Positions 1,318-6,172 of a DNA stretch of 7,164 nucleotides are shown here, piece after piece (position 1 is the stretch's first letter; every line of letters begins with the position of its first letter). The notes below the pieces were generated by a model. The model saw only the letters and a list, made by a program, of their open reading frames with translations, was not told the origin of the DNA and ran no database searches. Source of the stretch: Victivallales bacterium (GTDB lineage Bacteria > Verrucomicrobiota > Lentisphaeria > Oligosphaerales > Oligosphaeraceae); NCBI GenBank assembly GCA_017543165.1, contig JAFYGL010000088.1:1-7164 (forward strand), written 5' to 3'. The position numbers were made by a program, and so were the translations under genes.

Positions 1318-1370
1318 ACTATACTAAACTATAATGCAATATATTGTAATATAGTGTAGTATAGTATAGT
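1318..1370. promoter_or_regulatory. 48-bp palindrome with ACTATA/TATAGT half-sites: putative operator or centromere-like site
   Basis: Bases 1318-1365 form an inverted repeat with a dyad between 1341 and 1342; 21 of 24 base pairs match. The perfect core is CAATATATTG (1337-1346). Each arm carries two copies of one hexamer 10 bp apart: ACTATA at 1318-1323 and 1328-1333, and TATAGT at 1350-1355 and 1360-1365. A further TATAGT lies at 1365-1370 and a variant TGTAGT at 1355-1360. Ten-bp spacing puts the half-sites on one face of the helix, as expected for cooperative binding of a dimeric winged-helix protein. It lies 130 bp upstream of such a gene. In tubC-tubR-tubZ partition loci an AT-rich repeat array sits upstream of tubR. 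That the downstream protein binds here is inference; the repeats are seen directly. Confidence 0.75.
1343..1370 (+). promoter_or_regulatory. candidate sigma-70-type promoter inside the palindrome
   Basis: TATAGT at 1365-1370 matches the -10 consensus at five of six positions. A weak -35-like TATTGT lies at 1343-1348 with a 16-base spacer. A transcript would start near 1377, just ahead of the AGGAGG at 1384-1389. If real, the half-sites overlap the promoter and binding there would repress it, consistent with autoregulation. A second, weaker option is TTATCT (1430-1435) with TAATAA (1454-1459). The AT-richness makes chance matches likely. Confidence 0.3.
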
Positions 1371-1394
1371 TTAATATTGGCCTAGGAGGCGTAG

Positions 1395-1463
1395 ATGCCT
1401 GCGGGAATTTGCAAAATGCGGCGATTGGGTTATCTTACGACGATTTTTTGTTCTAATAAATAA
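1395..1463 (+). CDS. 22-codon small ORF with strong ribosome site (possible leader peptide)
   Basis: ATG at 1395 is preceded by a full AGGAGG at 1384-1389 with 5-base spacing, the strongest Shine-Dalgarno match noticed in this window. The frame runs 22 codons to TAA at 1461-1463. The peptide begins MPAGICKMRR and continues into a short hydrophobic stretch (L-G-Y-L-T-T-I-F-C) before a polar end, so a very small membrane or leader peptide is possible. It ends 36 bases before the winged-helix start. AGGC (1387-1390) can pair with GCCT (1397-1400), which could hide the ribosome site and the start codon. No family is recognised. The site may be chance, or a remnant of an older gene start. Confidence 0.35.
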   Translation: MPAGICKMRRLGYLTTIFCSNK

Positions 1464-1499
1464 GAAACACGCGTACGCAAGCAAAAAACAGGAAAACGA

Positions 1500-1859
1500 A
1501 TGAAAAAGAACGTCGCCATGGTAGATGAACTTGGGCCTCTGTTTGAGGAACAGGTGCTGCGGCTTCAGGAAAGTCATTTCATGATCCTGTATTGGGCTAC
1601 GCAGAGCGAAGGGCGGGGCTACAAATACAACATAACCAATGCCTTTGACGACATGAAGCAGGCGGGGCTGACACGAACAAAGCAGACCGCCGTCTCATCC
1701 GTCTTTGCACTTTCCACATTGTGTTTCATTGACATTCGGGACGAGCATAACAGAAAGAACATATACATAACCCGCTATGGTGCCCGTGCGCTTGAGATGA
1801 TGGTCAAGAGAGACCTGTTCAAACCGCAGGCATCGGCATATCTGGAGAACTTGCAATGA
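1500..1859 (+). CDS. winged-helix DNA-binding protein (TubR/MarR/PadR-like fold)
   Basis: A 119-residue protein with the layout of a small winged-helix regulator. A long amphipathic helix comes first (about 14-35). A recognition-helix-like stretch follows (about 58-74, T-R-T-K-Q-T-A-V-S-S-V). Then comes a beta hairpin wing (about 76-91, F-I-D-I-R-D-E-H-N-R-K-N-I-Y-I-T) and a C-terminal helix opening R-Y-G-A-R-A-L, the usual 'LT..G...L' ending of MarR/PadR-type folds. The start at 1500 has AGGA at 1490-1493 with 6-base spacing; M7 is a weaker alternative. Its stop overlaps the next start as ATGA, so translation is probably coupled. Position and size match TubR, the winged-helix centromere binder of TubZ partition systems, and a palindromic array lies upstream. 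The fold call is fairly firm; the TubR-like role is inference from context, and a plain autorepressor is the alternative. Confidence 0.75.
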   Translation: MKKNVAMVDELGPLFEEQVLRLQESHFMILYWATQSEGRGYKYNITNAFDDMKQAGLTRTKQTAVSSVFALSTLCFIDIRDEHNRKNIYITRYGARALEMMVKRDLFKPQASAYLENLQ

Positions 1860-2956
1860 CAATTGGAATCGGCGGCGCAGGCTGCAAATTGGCCGTGGAA
1901 CTCGACAATGAAGCAGTTCTGGTGAACGTGTCCCAGGTTGAGCTTAACAAGGTTCAAGGCGGAGGGGAGAGAATATTGGCTACCGTAAGGGCTGAGCACG
2001 GCCAGTTCCGCGGCTCCAGGAAGAATCCCGAAATCGGGCATGACGCATACGAATCCATCAAGAGGGAACTTCAGGCAGCCATACGCGGCAACAAGGTGTT
2101 CAGCTCCACAGGCGGCGGAACAGGGAACGGCATCACCTCTGGCATTCTGAACGACTTGGCGAAAGCGGAGAACGTCAGCACATCTGACAAGACATTCTTC
2201 GGCATAGTGCTGCCTTACGCTGGCCTTGAATCATCGGAATTCGTGGACAATACCATCGACTTCCTGACTGGGCCGCTTACGGAGGCAATCGACAGCGGAA
2301 ACACAGGAAACATAGTGCTCTTCAGCAACAAGGACAAGTTCGAAAAGGAAATAGCGGAGGATGTGTTCAACACAATGCTGATAGATTCCCTCAAGGTCTT
2401 CCTTGCAATACCTGACAAGAACGAGATGTACCGCTTGAGGGACGGCCATATTGACCATGAGGACTTCGCACTGTACATTTCCAAGCCCTACTTCAACTAT
2501 TTCACAAGTTTTGAATACGAGCCATCCAAGGACTTCGAGGCGCAGCTGGACGCGAACATGAACACCTTGCTCCTTGAGCCAGACAATGCGATCGAGGCGA
2601 TGTTCCTGCTTGAGATACCACAGGGCGGAGACCCCACCATCTTCTACAGCGTGCTGCGCTATTTCAACGGCAAGGATGTAACACCCATATACAGCGTGAT
2701 AGAGAATCCATCCCTTAAGAAGCCGTTCATCACAGTTTCACTGTTGTATTCACGAAAGCCAGATGAATTGCTGGAGGATTTCAACAGAATCAGCGAGCAC
2801 CACGCGCAGGTGAAGGTGAAGAAGTCCCTTGACCAGTATGTCCCAATGCCGAAGCTGGCAGTGAACATGGAGGACGAGGCCAAGAAGGCAGTAAGCAAAC
2901 GGACAGATGTGCAGGAAGACGTGCTTGCAACATTGCGTCGTATTGGTAAACTATGA
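1856..2956 (+). CDS. divergent FtsZ/tubulin-superfamily GTPase (TubZ-like or FtsZ-like)
   Basis: Several FtsZ/tubulin nucleotide loops can be read in order. T1 is I-G-I-G-G-A-G-C at residues 3-10. A strand and loop V-L-V-N-V-S-Q-V-E-L-N (21-31) resembles the FtsZ N-T-D-x-Q-x-L region. The tubulin signature is G-G-G-T-G-N-G at 86-92 (canonical GGGTG[TS]G). F-S-N-K-D-K-F (156-162) matches the guanine-contacting N-D/R segment and is followed by helix H7 (about 165-185). D-G-H-I-D-H-E-D-F (196-204) sits where the catalytic T7 loop (N-x-D-x-x-D) is expected, with D200 and D203 as candidate acids. So nucleotide binding and polymer-dependent hydrolysis look intact. No start codon exists upstream before an in-frame stop at 1793-1795, so T1 begins only two residues in, shorter than in typical FtsZ. 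GGAG at 1844-1847 is the ribosome site. The last residues (355-362, D-V-L-A-T-L-R-R) resemble the FtsZ C-terminal peptide. It is not the cell's canonical FtsZ: no division genes adjoin it and similarity is weak outside the loops. TubZ, phage PhuZ and distant FtsZ-like families are the alternatives. Confidence 0.87.
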   Translation: MTIGIGGAGCKLAVELDNEAVLVNVSQVELNKVQGGGERILATVRAEHGQFRGSRKNPEIGHDAYESIKRELQAAIRGNKVFSSTGGGTGNGITSGILNDLAKAENVSTSDKTFFGIVLPYAGLESSEFVDNTIDFLTGPLTEAIDSGNTGNIVLFSNKDKFEKEIAEDVFNTMLIDSLKVFLAIPDKNEMYRLRDGHIDHEDFALYISKPYFNYFTSFEYEPSKDFEAQLDANMNTLLLEPDNAIEAMFLLEIPQGGDPTIFYSVLRYFNGKDVTPIYSVIENPSLKKPFITVSLLYSRKPDELLEDFNRISEHHAQVKVKKSLDQYVPMPKLAVNMEDEAKKAVSKRTDVQEDVLATLRRIGKL

Positions 2957-2971
2957 GGCTCGGCTTTTGAA

Positions 2972-4057
2972 ATGAAGACGGATACTGATAGAATTGACGC
3001 AAGCATCACCTCGCAGGGTTTGACTTCAAGGAATGTGGAGCTTGAGGAAAAGACAAAGGTGATGGCACCCAAGGGCGGCAGGCAATATATCTCCACAAGA
3101 AAGAAGACCATCGATCATGCGGGCATCAAGCGCAAGGCCCAGGAAAATCCATACACCATTGAGAGCGAACTGGCGAAAGGCGCGGAAAGTGTCCTGTACA
3201 TTGGTGATTTGGAGGGGCAGCAGGTCTGCATAAAGTGCGTCAGGGGCTTTTTGAACAAAATCATAGGCGACAGCGCCACAAGGCGCCAGGAGGAGAGGCT
3301 GGAGAAAGTCTCCTACCGCACCAAGGTCAGGCACATAATGAATGAATACGAGGTGTCCAAACTTGTCTGTACAGATACTGATGACACGCCCCTTGTTCAT
3401 ATCTACGCGCTGCGCAAAGTGAAGAAATTCGGCCTGGAGCTGGGATACGATCTGATAATGGAATACCTGACAGGCCATGACCTGGCGGACAAGGCACTGA
3501 CAAAGAGCCTCTCCGTGGAGGACAAGATAGATGTGTTCGCGCAGGCTGTAAAGGCAATTTGCTATTTCCACAGCAAGCGCCTCATACACCTGGACATAAA
3601 ACCCTCCAACTTCATCCTCAACAATGGGCGCGTCAAGCTGATTGACTTTGGTGTTTCAGTGGGCGACGGCTTCAAGCCCATGGCAATCACAGGAACAGGC
3701 GGCTACCTCTCGCCTGAACAGATATGCAAGGCACCACTCAATGGCGCAACGGATGTGTTCGCACTTGGAGTGGCGTTTGCCGTCTTCTTTGGCGCAAAAC
3801 CGCTGAACCAGCCACAAAGCAGCCTGGTGCAGAAACAATTCCGCACAGACGCCAAATACCACCTTGAAAAAGACAACAGGCCCAGCATTCTGGACATACC
3901 TGAACTGGATGATTATCCAGAACTGCAGGAAATCATAAGGGACTGCACAATACCCAGAAGAGATCTGCGCATAAACAGCAGCCAGGGACTTTACCTAAGA
4001 ATAAAGGACTGGGCAAAAACAAACAACATAACGCTTCCTTCGCTGGCAAACAACTAA
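2972..4057 (+). CDS. cytosolic Hanks-type Ser/Thr protein kinase
   Basis: A 361-residue protein with a kinase domain from about residue 61. Key residues are visible: a degenerate glycine loop (L-A-K-G-A-E-S-V, 67-74, keeping one of three glycines), the ATP lysine K88 in V-C-I-K-C-V, a helix-C glutamate at E125 or E127, the hinge L-I-M-E-Y-L (161-166), the catalytic loop H-L-D-I-K-P-S-N (206-213), D-F-G (225-227), G-T-G-G-Y-L-S-P-E (241-249) and the helix-F aspartate in A-T-D-V-F-A-L-G-V. Catalysis should be intact. The H-L-D motif replaces H-R-D, so this is a non-RD kinase that may not need activation-loop phosphorylation. The first 60 residues are basic and Ser/Thr-rich, probably disordered. 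No membrane segment or extracellular sensor is seen. The start at 2972 lies 15 bases after the FtsZ-like stop with GAGG at 2955-2958; M31 (3062) is an alternative start. The genetic link suggests the GTPase or winged-helix protein as substrate, which is inference. Confidence 0.92.
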   Translation: MKTDTDRIDASITSQGLTSRNVELEEKTKVMAPKGGRQYISTRKKTIDHAGIKRKAQENPYTIESELAKGAESVLYIGDLEGQQVCIKCVRGFLNKIIGDSATRRQEERLEKVSYRTKVRHIMNEYEVSKLVCTDTDDTPLVHIYALRKVKKFGLELGYDLIMEYLTGHDLADKALTKSLSVEDKIDVFAQAVKAICYFHSKRLIHLDIKPSNFILNNGRVKLIDFGVSVGDGFKPMAITGTGGYLSPEQICKAPLNGATDVFALGVAFAVFFGAKPLNQPQSSLVQKQFRTDAKYHLEKDNRPSILDIPELDDYPELQEIIRDCTIPRRDLRINSSQGLYLRIKDWAKTNNITLPSLANN

Positions 4058-6010: not shown

Positions 6011-6172
6011 CTAGTGCTCTGTTTCAATTGAAAACAAATAGAGCTGATGTAGTTTTCGAGATGTTTGTTTGCGAGTTGCGCCGCGCATAGTTTCCTATGT
6101 AAGAAGCAACTCACAAGGAAACGGCCGAAAAATACGCGGCTATGTTAGTTTTCAATTGAAACAGAGCACTAG
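6011..6172. mobile_element. MITE-like 162-bp palindromic element with 25-bp perfect terminal inverted repeats
   Basis: The left arm 6011-6035 and right arm 6148-6172 are exact reverse complements over 25 bases, beginning CTAGTGCTCTGTTTC. Pairing continues imperfectly inward: TTTTCG (6053-6058) with CGAAAA (6126-6131), GTTT (6063-6066) with AAAC (6119-6122), GAGTTGC (6073-6079) with GCAACTC (6106-6112) and CATAG (6086-6090) with CTATG (6095-6099). The whole unit can therefore fold into one hairpin around 6092. The arms contain the 12-bp palindrome TTTCAATTGAAA. No gene fits inside. The outer CTAG is itself palindromic, so a 4-bp CTAG or 2-bp TA target duplication cannot be told from repeat sequence; TA would fit an IS630/Tc1-type mobiliser. 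As RNA it could also end or stabilise the lpxB transcript. A dedicated bidirectional terminator is the alternative, though the arms lack a T-run and exceed usual terminator length. Confidence 0.7.

Follow-up and report, generated by a model that had tools for sequence, protein, structure and literature searches.

A locus in a 7,164-nucleotide stretch of a Victivallales bacterium genome (contig JAFYGL010000088.1, hereafter the window) probably encodes a system for segregating DNA that is chromosomal, linked to the replication origin and similar in its working to the type III partition (TubZRC) of plasmids. It consists of an array of ACT/AGT triplets, a gene for a small winged-helix (wH) protein, a gene for a TubZ-like GTPase and, in the window, a gene for a protein kinase (Table 1). 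What is claimed here is homology to TubZRC and a similar way of working, not standard membership of that group. This reading was drawn from the gene order, the kinship of the two proteins, the logic of the repeats and the location at a GC-skew switch on chromosome-sized contigs. Known cases of tubulin-type partition come from plasmids and phages.

An initial annotation of the window had described a phased palindrome at the head of three tightly packed genes for a winged-helix protein, a tubulin-superfamily GTPase and an active-looking kinase. All of these elements were found where it had placed them (positions 1318-4057), and the catalytic residues of the kinase were intact. The open reading frames (ORFs) of the wH protein and the GTPase share 4 bp, and 15 bp separate those of the GTPase and the kinase.

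Table 1. Elements of the locus, with positions in the window
Feature	Positions	Strand	Basis
Array of 5-bp-phased ACT/AGT triplets, proposed centromere-like site of the wH protein	1318..1375		Triplet scoring, inverted repeat
wH protein, 119 aa, TubR-like, proposed centromere-binding protein	1500..1859	+	Profile, predicted fold
TubZ-like GTPase of the FtsZ/tubulin superfamily, 366 aa	1856..2956	+	Motifs, profile, predicted fold
Protein kinase, 361 aa, catalytic residues intact	2972..4057	+	Pkinase match, conserved residues

The TubR-like and TubZ-like pair and its array

The GTPase carries the motifs GIGGAG, GGGTGNG and GHIDHEDF, which we take to be its T1-, T4- and T7-like motifs, respectively. 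Among proteins of solved structure its best profile match was TubZ (E 2.2e-7), followed by FtsZ (E 6.8e-7), and in the fold comparison of its model ranks 1 to 7 were all TubZ, rank 7 lying less than 1 Z unit from FtsZ; by both rankings it is a tubulin-superfamily GTPase closest to TubZ. Its match to the Pfam Tubulin family (E 2.1e-5) was under the curated cut-off, and searches at E values up to 1 gave no match to TIGR00065, FtsZ_C or Tubulin_2 (PF13809). The aspartates D200 and D203 were kept in 48 of 48 TubZ-like sequences, and the C-terminus is a conserved DVL..L.R.GKL-like tail, unlike that of FtsZ. The context is not that of an FtsZ gene either, which would lie behind ftsA and encode a D-[ILV]-P-T tail: a wH gene was found upstream in 50 of 50 loci, and the tail differs.

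The wH protein had no convincing family match (best NCBIfam E 0.054, best PHROG E 0.19). Its predicted model was a confident winged helix (predicted local distance difference test score 92.8), and its best match of solved structure by sequence profile was TubR (E 0.0041). The order of its helices and strands agrees, save for the first strand, with that given for TubR in an excerpt of PMC5016525, so that it resembles the small winged-helix protein of TubR fold that type III partition employs, with a predicted role in binding the array. The kinship with TubZRC proposed initially was thus borne out for both proteins.

A single scan of genome contigs gave 52 related loci, and the wH gene was directly 5' of the GTPase gene in all 50 with their 5' side present; the other two (L048 and L049) start within the GTPase gene and therefore fall outside this count. 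Since the loci are related (for instance the window, L001, L002 and L003), counts over them are not independent. The two genes were also adjacent in the genomes G026, G027, G028 and G252, where no kinase gene was present in the 10-20 kb examined. A profile of the GTPase matched 58 of 197 genomes of the class, with one match each in 57 and a split gene in the 58th. A phylum-wide draw gave a strong match in 36 of 387 genomes, of which G018 and G252 lay outside the class set, and 29 further matches were weak (E 1e-7 to 3e-4). The completeness of the searched genomes was not given, and absences are accordingly weak. Protein searches returned mostly metagenome proteins, the named ones being from Lentisphaerota among the matches listed (the best 120 of 320 and the best 120 of 515).

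The palindrome of the initial annotation is a real repeat, but it is the visible part of a larger regularity, an array of pentamers that passes from ACTNN to AGTNN. Positions 1318-1375 read ACTAT ACTAA ACTAT AATGC AATAT ATTGT AATAT AGTGT AGTAT AGTAT AGTTT AAT, that is, three ACTNN units, four degenerate AAT/ATT pentamers, four AGTNN units and one AAT. The triplet ACT, repeated every 5 bp, switches half-way to its reverse complement AGT, and the whole forms an inverted repeat that is 88% complementary. Seven of 11 units carried an in-phase triplet, with a maximum of 3 elsewhere in the window outside the 1.5-kb upstream stretch, and none of 200 dinucleotide shuffles of that upstream stretch reached 7.

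When the best 11-unit stretch was scored upstream of 51 loci (50 relatives and the window), at least 5/11 in-phase triplets preceded the wH gene in 46 of them, with 11/11 in L005 and L006. The order of repeats, TubR-like gene and TubZ-like gene read in the initial annotation is thereby supported. In the 46 array-positive loci, sequence outside the 1.5-kb upstream stretch never scored above 4, and only in L026 and L042 did at least 4 of 200 shuffles match the observed score (4 and 8, respectively). Arrays scoring 7-8/11 were also present in G026, G027, G028 and G252. This score was devised after the arrays had been seen, and a less biased test was provided by all 32 reverse-complement triplet pairs at periods 3-12 in 50 loci. 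Of these 320 combinations, ACT/AGT at period 5 ranked first (mean 5.60/8), with 39 of the 50 loci reaching at least 5/8; the second was its harmonic at period 10 (mean 4.18), and the best different pair averaged 3.46. No locus reached 5/8 for ACT/AGT at periods 3, 4, 6-9, 11 or 12.

A search of the 197 class genomes for six consecutive units matched in 16. In 12 of them, all pair-bearing (12/58, against 0/139 of the pair-less genomes), the match lay just upstream of the pair, and genome-wide the pair locus was the only place where six-unit arrays other than simple tandems occurred. All other matches were plain tandem repeats of 5 or 10 bp (G002 at 4.14 Mb, G016, G122, G123 and, at a second site, G046); a reversed-pattern control also matched in G013, G015, G104, G122 and G123.

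The orientation of the units differs by locus, being all forward, in inverted halves or mixed. The main array comprises as many as 11 units in a row and usually precedes the gene by 130-450 bp (range 85-588). Some loci have a short copy of the array that overlaps a promoter-like site near the gene (for example TTGACA-16-TATAGT in L047, TTGACC-16-TATAGT in L012 and TTGACC-17-TATAGT in L011 and L013), and in several the main array stands apart from this promoter copy; the window has the main array only. The overlapping copies, counted without a control for chance, suggest autoregulation. In L023 and L051 three in-phase AGT units persist at a promoter-like site, despite the lack of any array above 3/11 in the upstream 1-1.5 kb.

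Genome position and the case for segregation

GC skew was sampled in five genomes, mostly in 20-kb stretches (5-10 kb in G252), and the locus lay at a switch from negative to positive skew in four of them. In Oligosphaera ethanolica (G002, 5.73-Mb contig) the cumulative skew had a minimum plateau at about 2.02-2.15 Mb and the locus was at 2.097 Mb. The switch fell at about 0.60 Mb in G027 (locus at 0.608 Mb), at 2.66-2.72 Mb in G028 (locus at 2.730 Mb, close to the contig end) and between 1.38 and 1.425 Mb in G252 (3.88-Mb contig, locus at 1.430 Mb). The rplB gene shares a contig with the locus in G002 and G252, and its strand there agrees with a start of replication at the skew switch. Coding-strand bias was considered as a further sign of an origin and rejected, as it fitted an origin in G252 and was absent in G002, G027 and G028. 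Placement at the origin is thus an inference from skew, good to tens of kb.

The initial annotation had offered three roles, namely chromosomal segregation, a domesticated plasmid or phage module, and a conflict or defence module. The first is favoured by the single match in 57 of the 58 genomes and by the skew switch in four of five. That the locus is a domesticated or active mobile element or a defence module appears very improbable. Such an origin would be in keeping with the occurrence of TubZRC on plasmids and in a phage, and kinases do occur in defence systems, as the PADLOC kinase matches illustrate. Nevertheless, PADLOC gave no match for the wH protein or the GTPase, and the kinase matched many kinase models, on which grounds the defence module was rejected. 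No relatives of the pair were found in plasmids, phages or IMG/VR, one query sequence having been used for plasmids and phages; known plasmid TubZ proteins were likewise not listed, so these searches reach close relatives only. Moreover, the pair is single in all the genomes carrying it, save for the split gene, and instead of plasmid or phage carriage we found it, together with rplB, on the 5.73-Mb and 3.88-Mb contigs of G002 and G252.

We therefore favour a type III partition-like mechanism. The TubR-like wH protein would coat the 5-bp-phased array beside its own gene and, when bound there, would repress its own promoter, the promoter-linked copies giving autoregulation. The resulting nucleoprotein would capture filaments of the TubZ-like GTPase, probably via the conserved C-terminal tail of the latter, and the turnover of these filaments would pull sister origins apart. 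Where it is present, the kinase would probably adjust filament assembly or the contact between the TubR-like and TubZ-like proteins by phosphorylation.

Several observations weigh against segregation from the origin. Of the 197 class genomes, 139 do without the pair. In fold scores the wH model tied with MarR, PadR and RosR. Five of the 51 upstream regions (L023, L030, L032, L051 and L045, the last cut short at 104 bp) had no array above 3/11, and G012 had none above 4/11. In G012 the skew was also noisy, its sampled minimum being at about 0.7-0.8 Mb with the locus at 1.31 Mb; in this genome about 36 kb of the sampled stretches were masked (N) at about 1.65-1.72 Mb of C1, which added to the noise. 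Where dnaA and the locus share a contig (G002, G012 and G027), 0.7-1.5 Mb separate the two, and a scan of 51 loci for DnaA boxes (with TTWTNCACA, which we take to be the consensus) revealed no cluster, so that the origin itself is not pinned. It is probable that G027 and G028 are closely related, and in both the gap between skew minimum and maximum was 1.2-1.4 Mb on a C1 contig of 2.7-2.8 Mb, about half of its length. They have a second contig (C2) of 2.4-2.6 Mb, the skew survey having covered C1; rplB is on C2 in both, and dnaA is on C1 in G027 and on C2 in G028. Either each genome has two replicons, of which C1 may be one, or a single chromosome has been split between the contigs.

A ParB match passed the cut-off in 10 of the 197 class genomes, namely in 3 of the 58 that carry the pair, a rarity that speaks for segregation by the pair, and in 7 of the other 139; among 14 control genomes the search was positive in 9. 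Because pair-less genomes are also mostly without ParB, its absence does not single out the pair-bearing ones, and it was rejected as their mark. One pair-bearing genome has a strong ParB match (G014:C20:6017-6469, L171; E 9.9e-44), which is unusual for the class.

Two other roles for the pair and array were weighed. The array might be an iteron site, with the pair governing initiation at the chromosome origin and not movement. The location at the skew switch would suit such replication control, which we nonetheless regard as quite unlikely: the loci lack a DnaA-box cluster, for which reason the array was also rejected as oriC, and simple iteron control would presumably need no tubulin-type GTPase with an intact T7 motif. 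The other possibility is an operon that does no more than regulate itself, the wH protein being a MarR/PadR-type repressor, the array its operator and the GTPase a cell-shape paralogue of FtsZ. The tie of the wH fold with MarR and PadR and the promoter-like sites overlapped by short array copies speak for it, but the distance of the main array from the gene and its separateness from the promoter copy in several loci, the best profile matches to TubZ and TubR and the position at the skew switch make it improbable.

The linked kinase and the decay of FtsZ

The kinase of the window matched Pkinase with an E value of 7.4e-25, and its catalytic residues are K88, E125, HLDIKPSN at 206-213 and DFG at 225-227. 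Across 27 kinases (26 loci and the window) these residues, including the catalytic lysine, HxDxKxxN and DFG, showed a conservation of 96% or more. The initial annotation had treated the three genes as a unit; they do co-occur, but the core is the pair with its array, and the kinase is linked in one clade. The conservation of neighbours, which it had proposed as a check, was surveyed: the kinase gene is the commonest third gene of the pair loci and was directly 3' of the GTPase gene in 26 of 52, which are all of the kinase-bearing loci (26/26). Three of the 26 loci without it (L041, L046 and L047) reach the contig end within 720 bp of the GTPase gene. Past the kinase the genes vary by group (lpxB, cluster 3, cluster 5 or cluster 18).

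A tree of the GTPase, with 49 loci and the window as its 50 rows, placed all 26 kinase-linked rows in one group with support 100/99, and linkage required one change, compared with a shuffled mean of 17.0. When the 197 class genomes were searched with the window kinase at E values up to 1e-30, the family was found in 36 of 58 pair-bearing and in none of 139 pair-less genomes. The gene was beside the GTPase gene in 28 of these 36 genomes and on another contig in eight (G006, G007, G020, G031, G032, G034, G036 and G037), so the kinase accompanies the pair more widely than its linkage shows. The first three of the eight are the genomes of L017, L018 and L051, loci that branch near the kinase-linked clade. 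At the same threshold the family was absent from more distant pair-bearing genomes, such as G012, G014-G019, G026-G028 and G252. The occurrence of the unlinked gene led us to replace the idea that the kinase was gained once by the statement that it was linked once: a single clade either acquired the linkage or retained it. Given the clustering by lineage, the co-occurrences of kinase and pair amount to few independent events. As the family is tied to pair-bearing genomes, and in one clade to the operon, the most likely substrate of the kinase would be the GTPase or the TubR-like protein.

The initial annotation had warned that the GTPase might be the ordinary FtsZ paralogue of the lineage, which is not the case, as ordinary FtsZ is encoded by a separate gene. 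TIGR00065 matched in 180 of the 197 class genomes, in none over the cut-off, and weak matches may be the TubZ-like gene; nevertheless, in O. ethanolica (L065) and in L063 an FtsZ gene lies behind the FtsA gene, apart from the TubZ-like gene. The idea that the latter is the sole tubulin-family gene of the kinase-linked clade was likewise rejected, since G001 has an FtsZ scoring 9.6e-19.

A Lentisphaerota FtsZ profile (A4), built from 25 of the 34 FtsZ ORFs listed, was searched against 27 kinase-linked genomes and five others, and 12 FtsZ regions were examined among the 28 genomes matched. Within the 27, 15 matched in two pieces that skip approximately positions 200-340 (T7 and the C-terminal region), eight in one longer piece and G005 in the tail only; G045, G046 and G053 had no A4 match, for which assembly gaps may account. 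The T7 aspartate of FtsZ was kept in 0 of 14 sequences of the kinase-linked clade (seven with a gap there), all from genomes in which the kinase gene adjoins the pair, compared with 21 of 22 others, of which 10 came from pair-bearing genomes without a linked kinase (10/10 keep it) and 12 from the best TIGR00065 matches. The exact GGGTG signature was present in 2 of the 14 and 5 of the 22, and this rarity in both sets indicates that FtsZ of the Lentisphaerota is divergent in general. The tail D-[ILV]-P-T was retained in 12 of the 14. In the degraded FtsZ loci (L065, L063, L064 and L288-L299) either the T7 aspartate or the entire C-terminal domain is missing.

In one clade, then, FtsZ decay goes with kinase linkage. 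The kinase alone does not account for the decay, as the FtsZ of G028 (L299), a genome without a kinase match, is also degraded, and G006, G007 and G020, where the kinase is unlinked, keep the T7 aspartate (L057, L058 and L059). An excerpt of PMC12283558 describes the dcw genes as highly conserved in Lentisphaerota, a statement that FtsZ decay qualifies for one clade.

These data bring in an alternative in which, in the kinase-linked clade, the TubZ-like GTPase is the main cytoskeletal polymer and carries out or times division instead of FtsZ, with the kinase as a cell-cycle switch and the array tying the polymer to the origin. The loss of the FtsZ aspartate in 14 of 14 sequences, while D200 and D203 of the TubZ-like protein are kept throughout, and the coincidence of linkage and decay in one clade argue for it. 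We consider it unlikely, as the degraded FtsZ still lies behind FtsA (L065 and L063) and mostly keeps its tail, and may therefore still act; G028 on one side and G006, G007 and G020 on the other break the correspondence with the kinase, and lost FtsZ catalysis would also fit division without any tubulin-type polymer. A broader scenario joins this alternative to origin segregation: a branch of the Lentisphaerota would move its origins by a tubulin-type motor on a pentamer centromere, a bacterial parallel to a kinase-controlled spindle, and in the kinase-linked clade the polymer would have replaced FtsZ, whose catalytic loop then decayed, leaving a non-catalytic, FtsA-linked remnant. This we advance tentatively, as a doubtful extension of segregation by the pair.

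Surroundings and comparison with known systems

Downstream of the kinase gene the window continues with lpxB, a gene for a metallo-beta-lactamase (MBL)-fold protein and one for a TrkA-type protein, and a DUF2851 gene lies upstream on the opposite strand. The nearest relative on genome contigs is a goat-rumen Victivallales metagenome-assembled genome (L001), with a 98% identical GTPase. Between the MBL-fold gene and trkA, positions 6011-6172 hold an inverted repeat with 34-nt arms, 91% complementary and 94 nt apart; a 25-base piece of one arm had no exact copy in the 299 loci examined, and an Rfam scan of the window gave no match.

If segregation by the pair is correct, it would offer one answer to how bacteria without a clear ParABS segregate their origins, and it would provide a kinase-coupled segregation system to test. 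With the catalytic residues of FtsZ lost in the kinase-linked clade, division without active FtsZ also becomes directly testable. Oligosphaera ethanolica DSM 24202 (L002) is a named strain in which the array, the pair and the linked kinase are all present. In the open-licence literature searched, outside which most subscription papers lie, we found no account of a chromosomal TubZ system, fixed and linked to the origin, in Lentisphaerota.

The closest known systems are the TubZRC loci of Bacillus plasmids and the Clostridium phage c-st, which share with the loci described here upstream repeats, a small winged-helix gene and a gene for a tubulin-type GTPase. Excerpts of PMC7762940 and PMC5016525 state the order tubC-tubR-tubZ, which is the order at these loci. 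The best solved matches of both proteins are TubZRC members, and in some loci the repeats are tied to the promoter. In contrast to TubZRC, the loci studied here are on large, chromosome-sized contigs, where GC skew suggests a link to the origin, and they have a 5-bp-phased ACT/AGT array and, in one clade, a kinase as third gene. Plasmid or phage carriage is a habit of the known TubZRC members and not part of the mechanism; plasmidic TubZ in Firmicutes is described in an excerpt of PMC9871819.

With FtsZ the GTPase shares the superfamily, the GTPase motifs and the T7 loop, but in the loci seen it is not beside ftsA, and it lacks an FtsZ_C match and carries the DVL..L.R.GKL-like tail. FtsZ-like 1 (Tubulin_2; Makarova and Koonin 2010), for which an excerpt of PMC2875224 reports a GTPase gene near Ser/Thr kinase genes in a Halorhabdus locus, is similar in that a tubulin-superfamily GTPase gene is near a kinase gene. 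It differs in that the GTPase described here has no PF13809 match and is accompanied by a wH gene and an array, whereas the neighbours given in that excerpt are VWA and OmpA. Finally, chromosomal ParABS has the same proposed job, segregation from a centromere site near the origin, but its proteins are unrelated, ParA taking the place that a tubulin-type GTPase would hold here.

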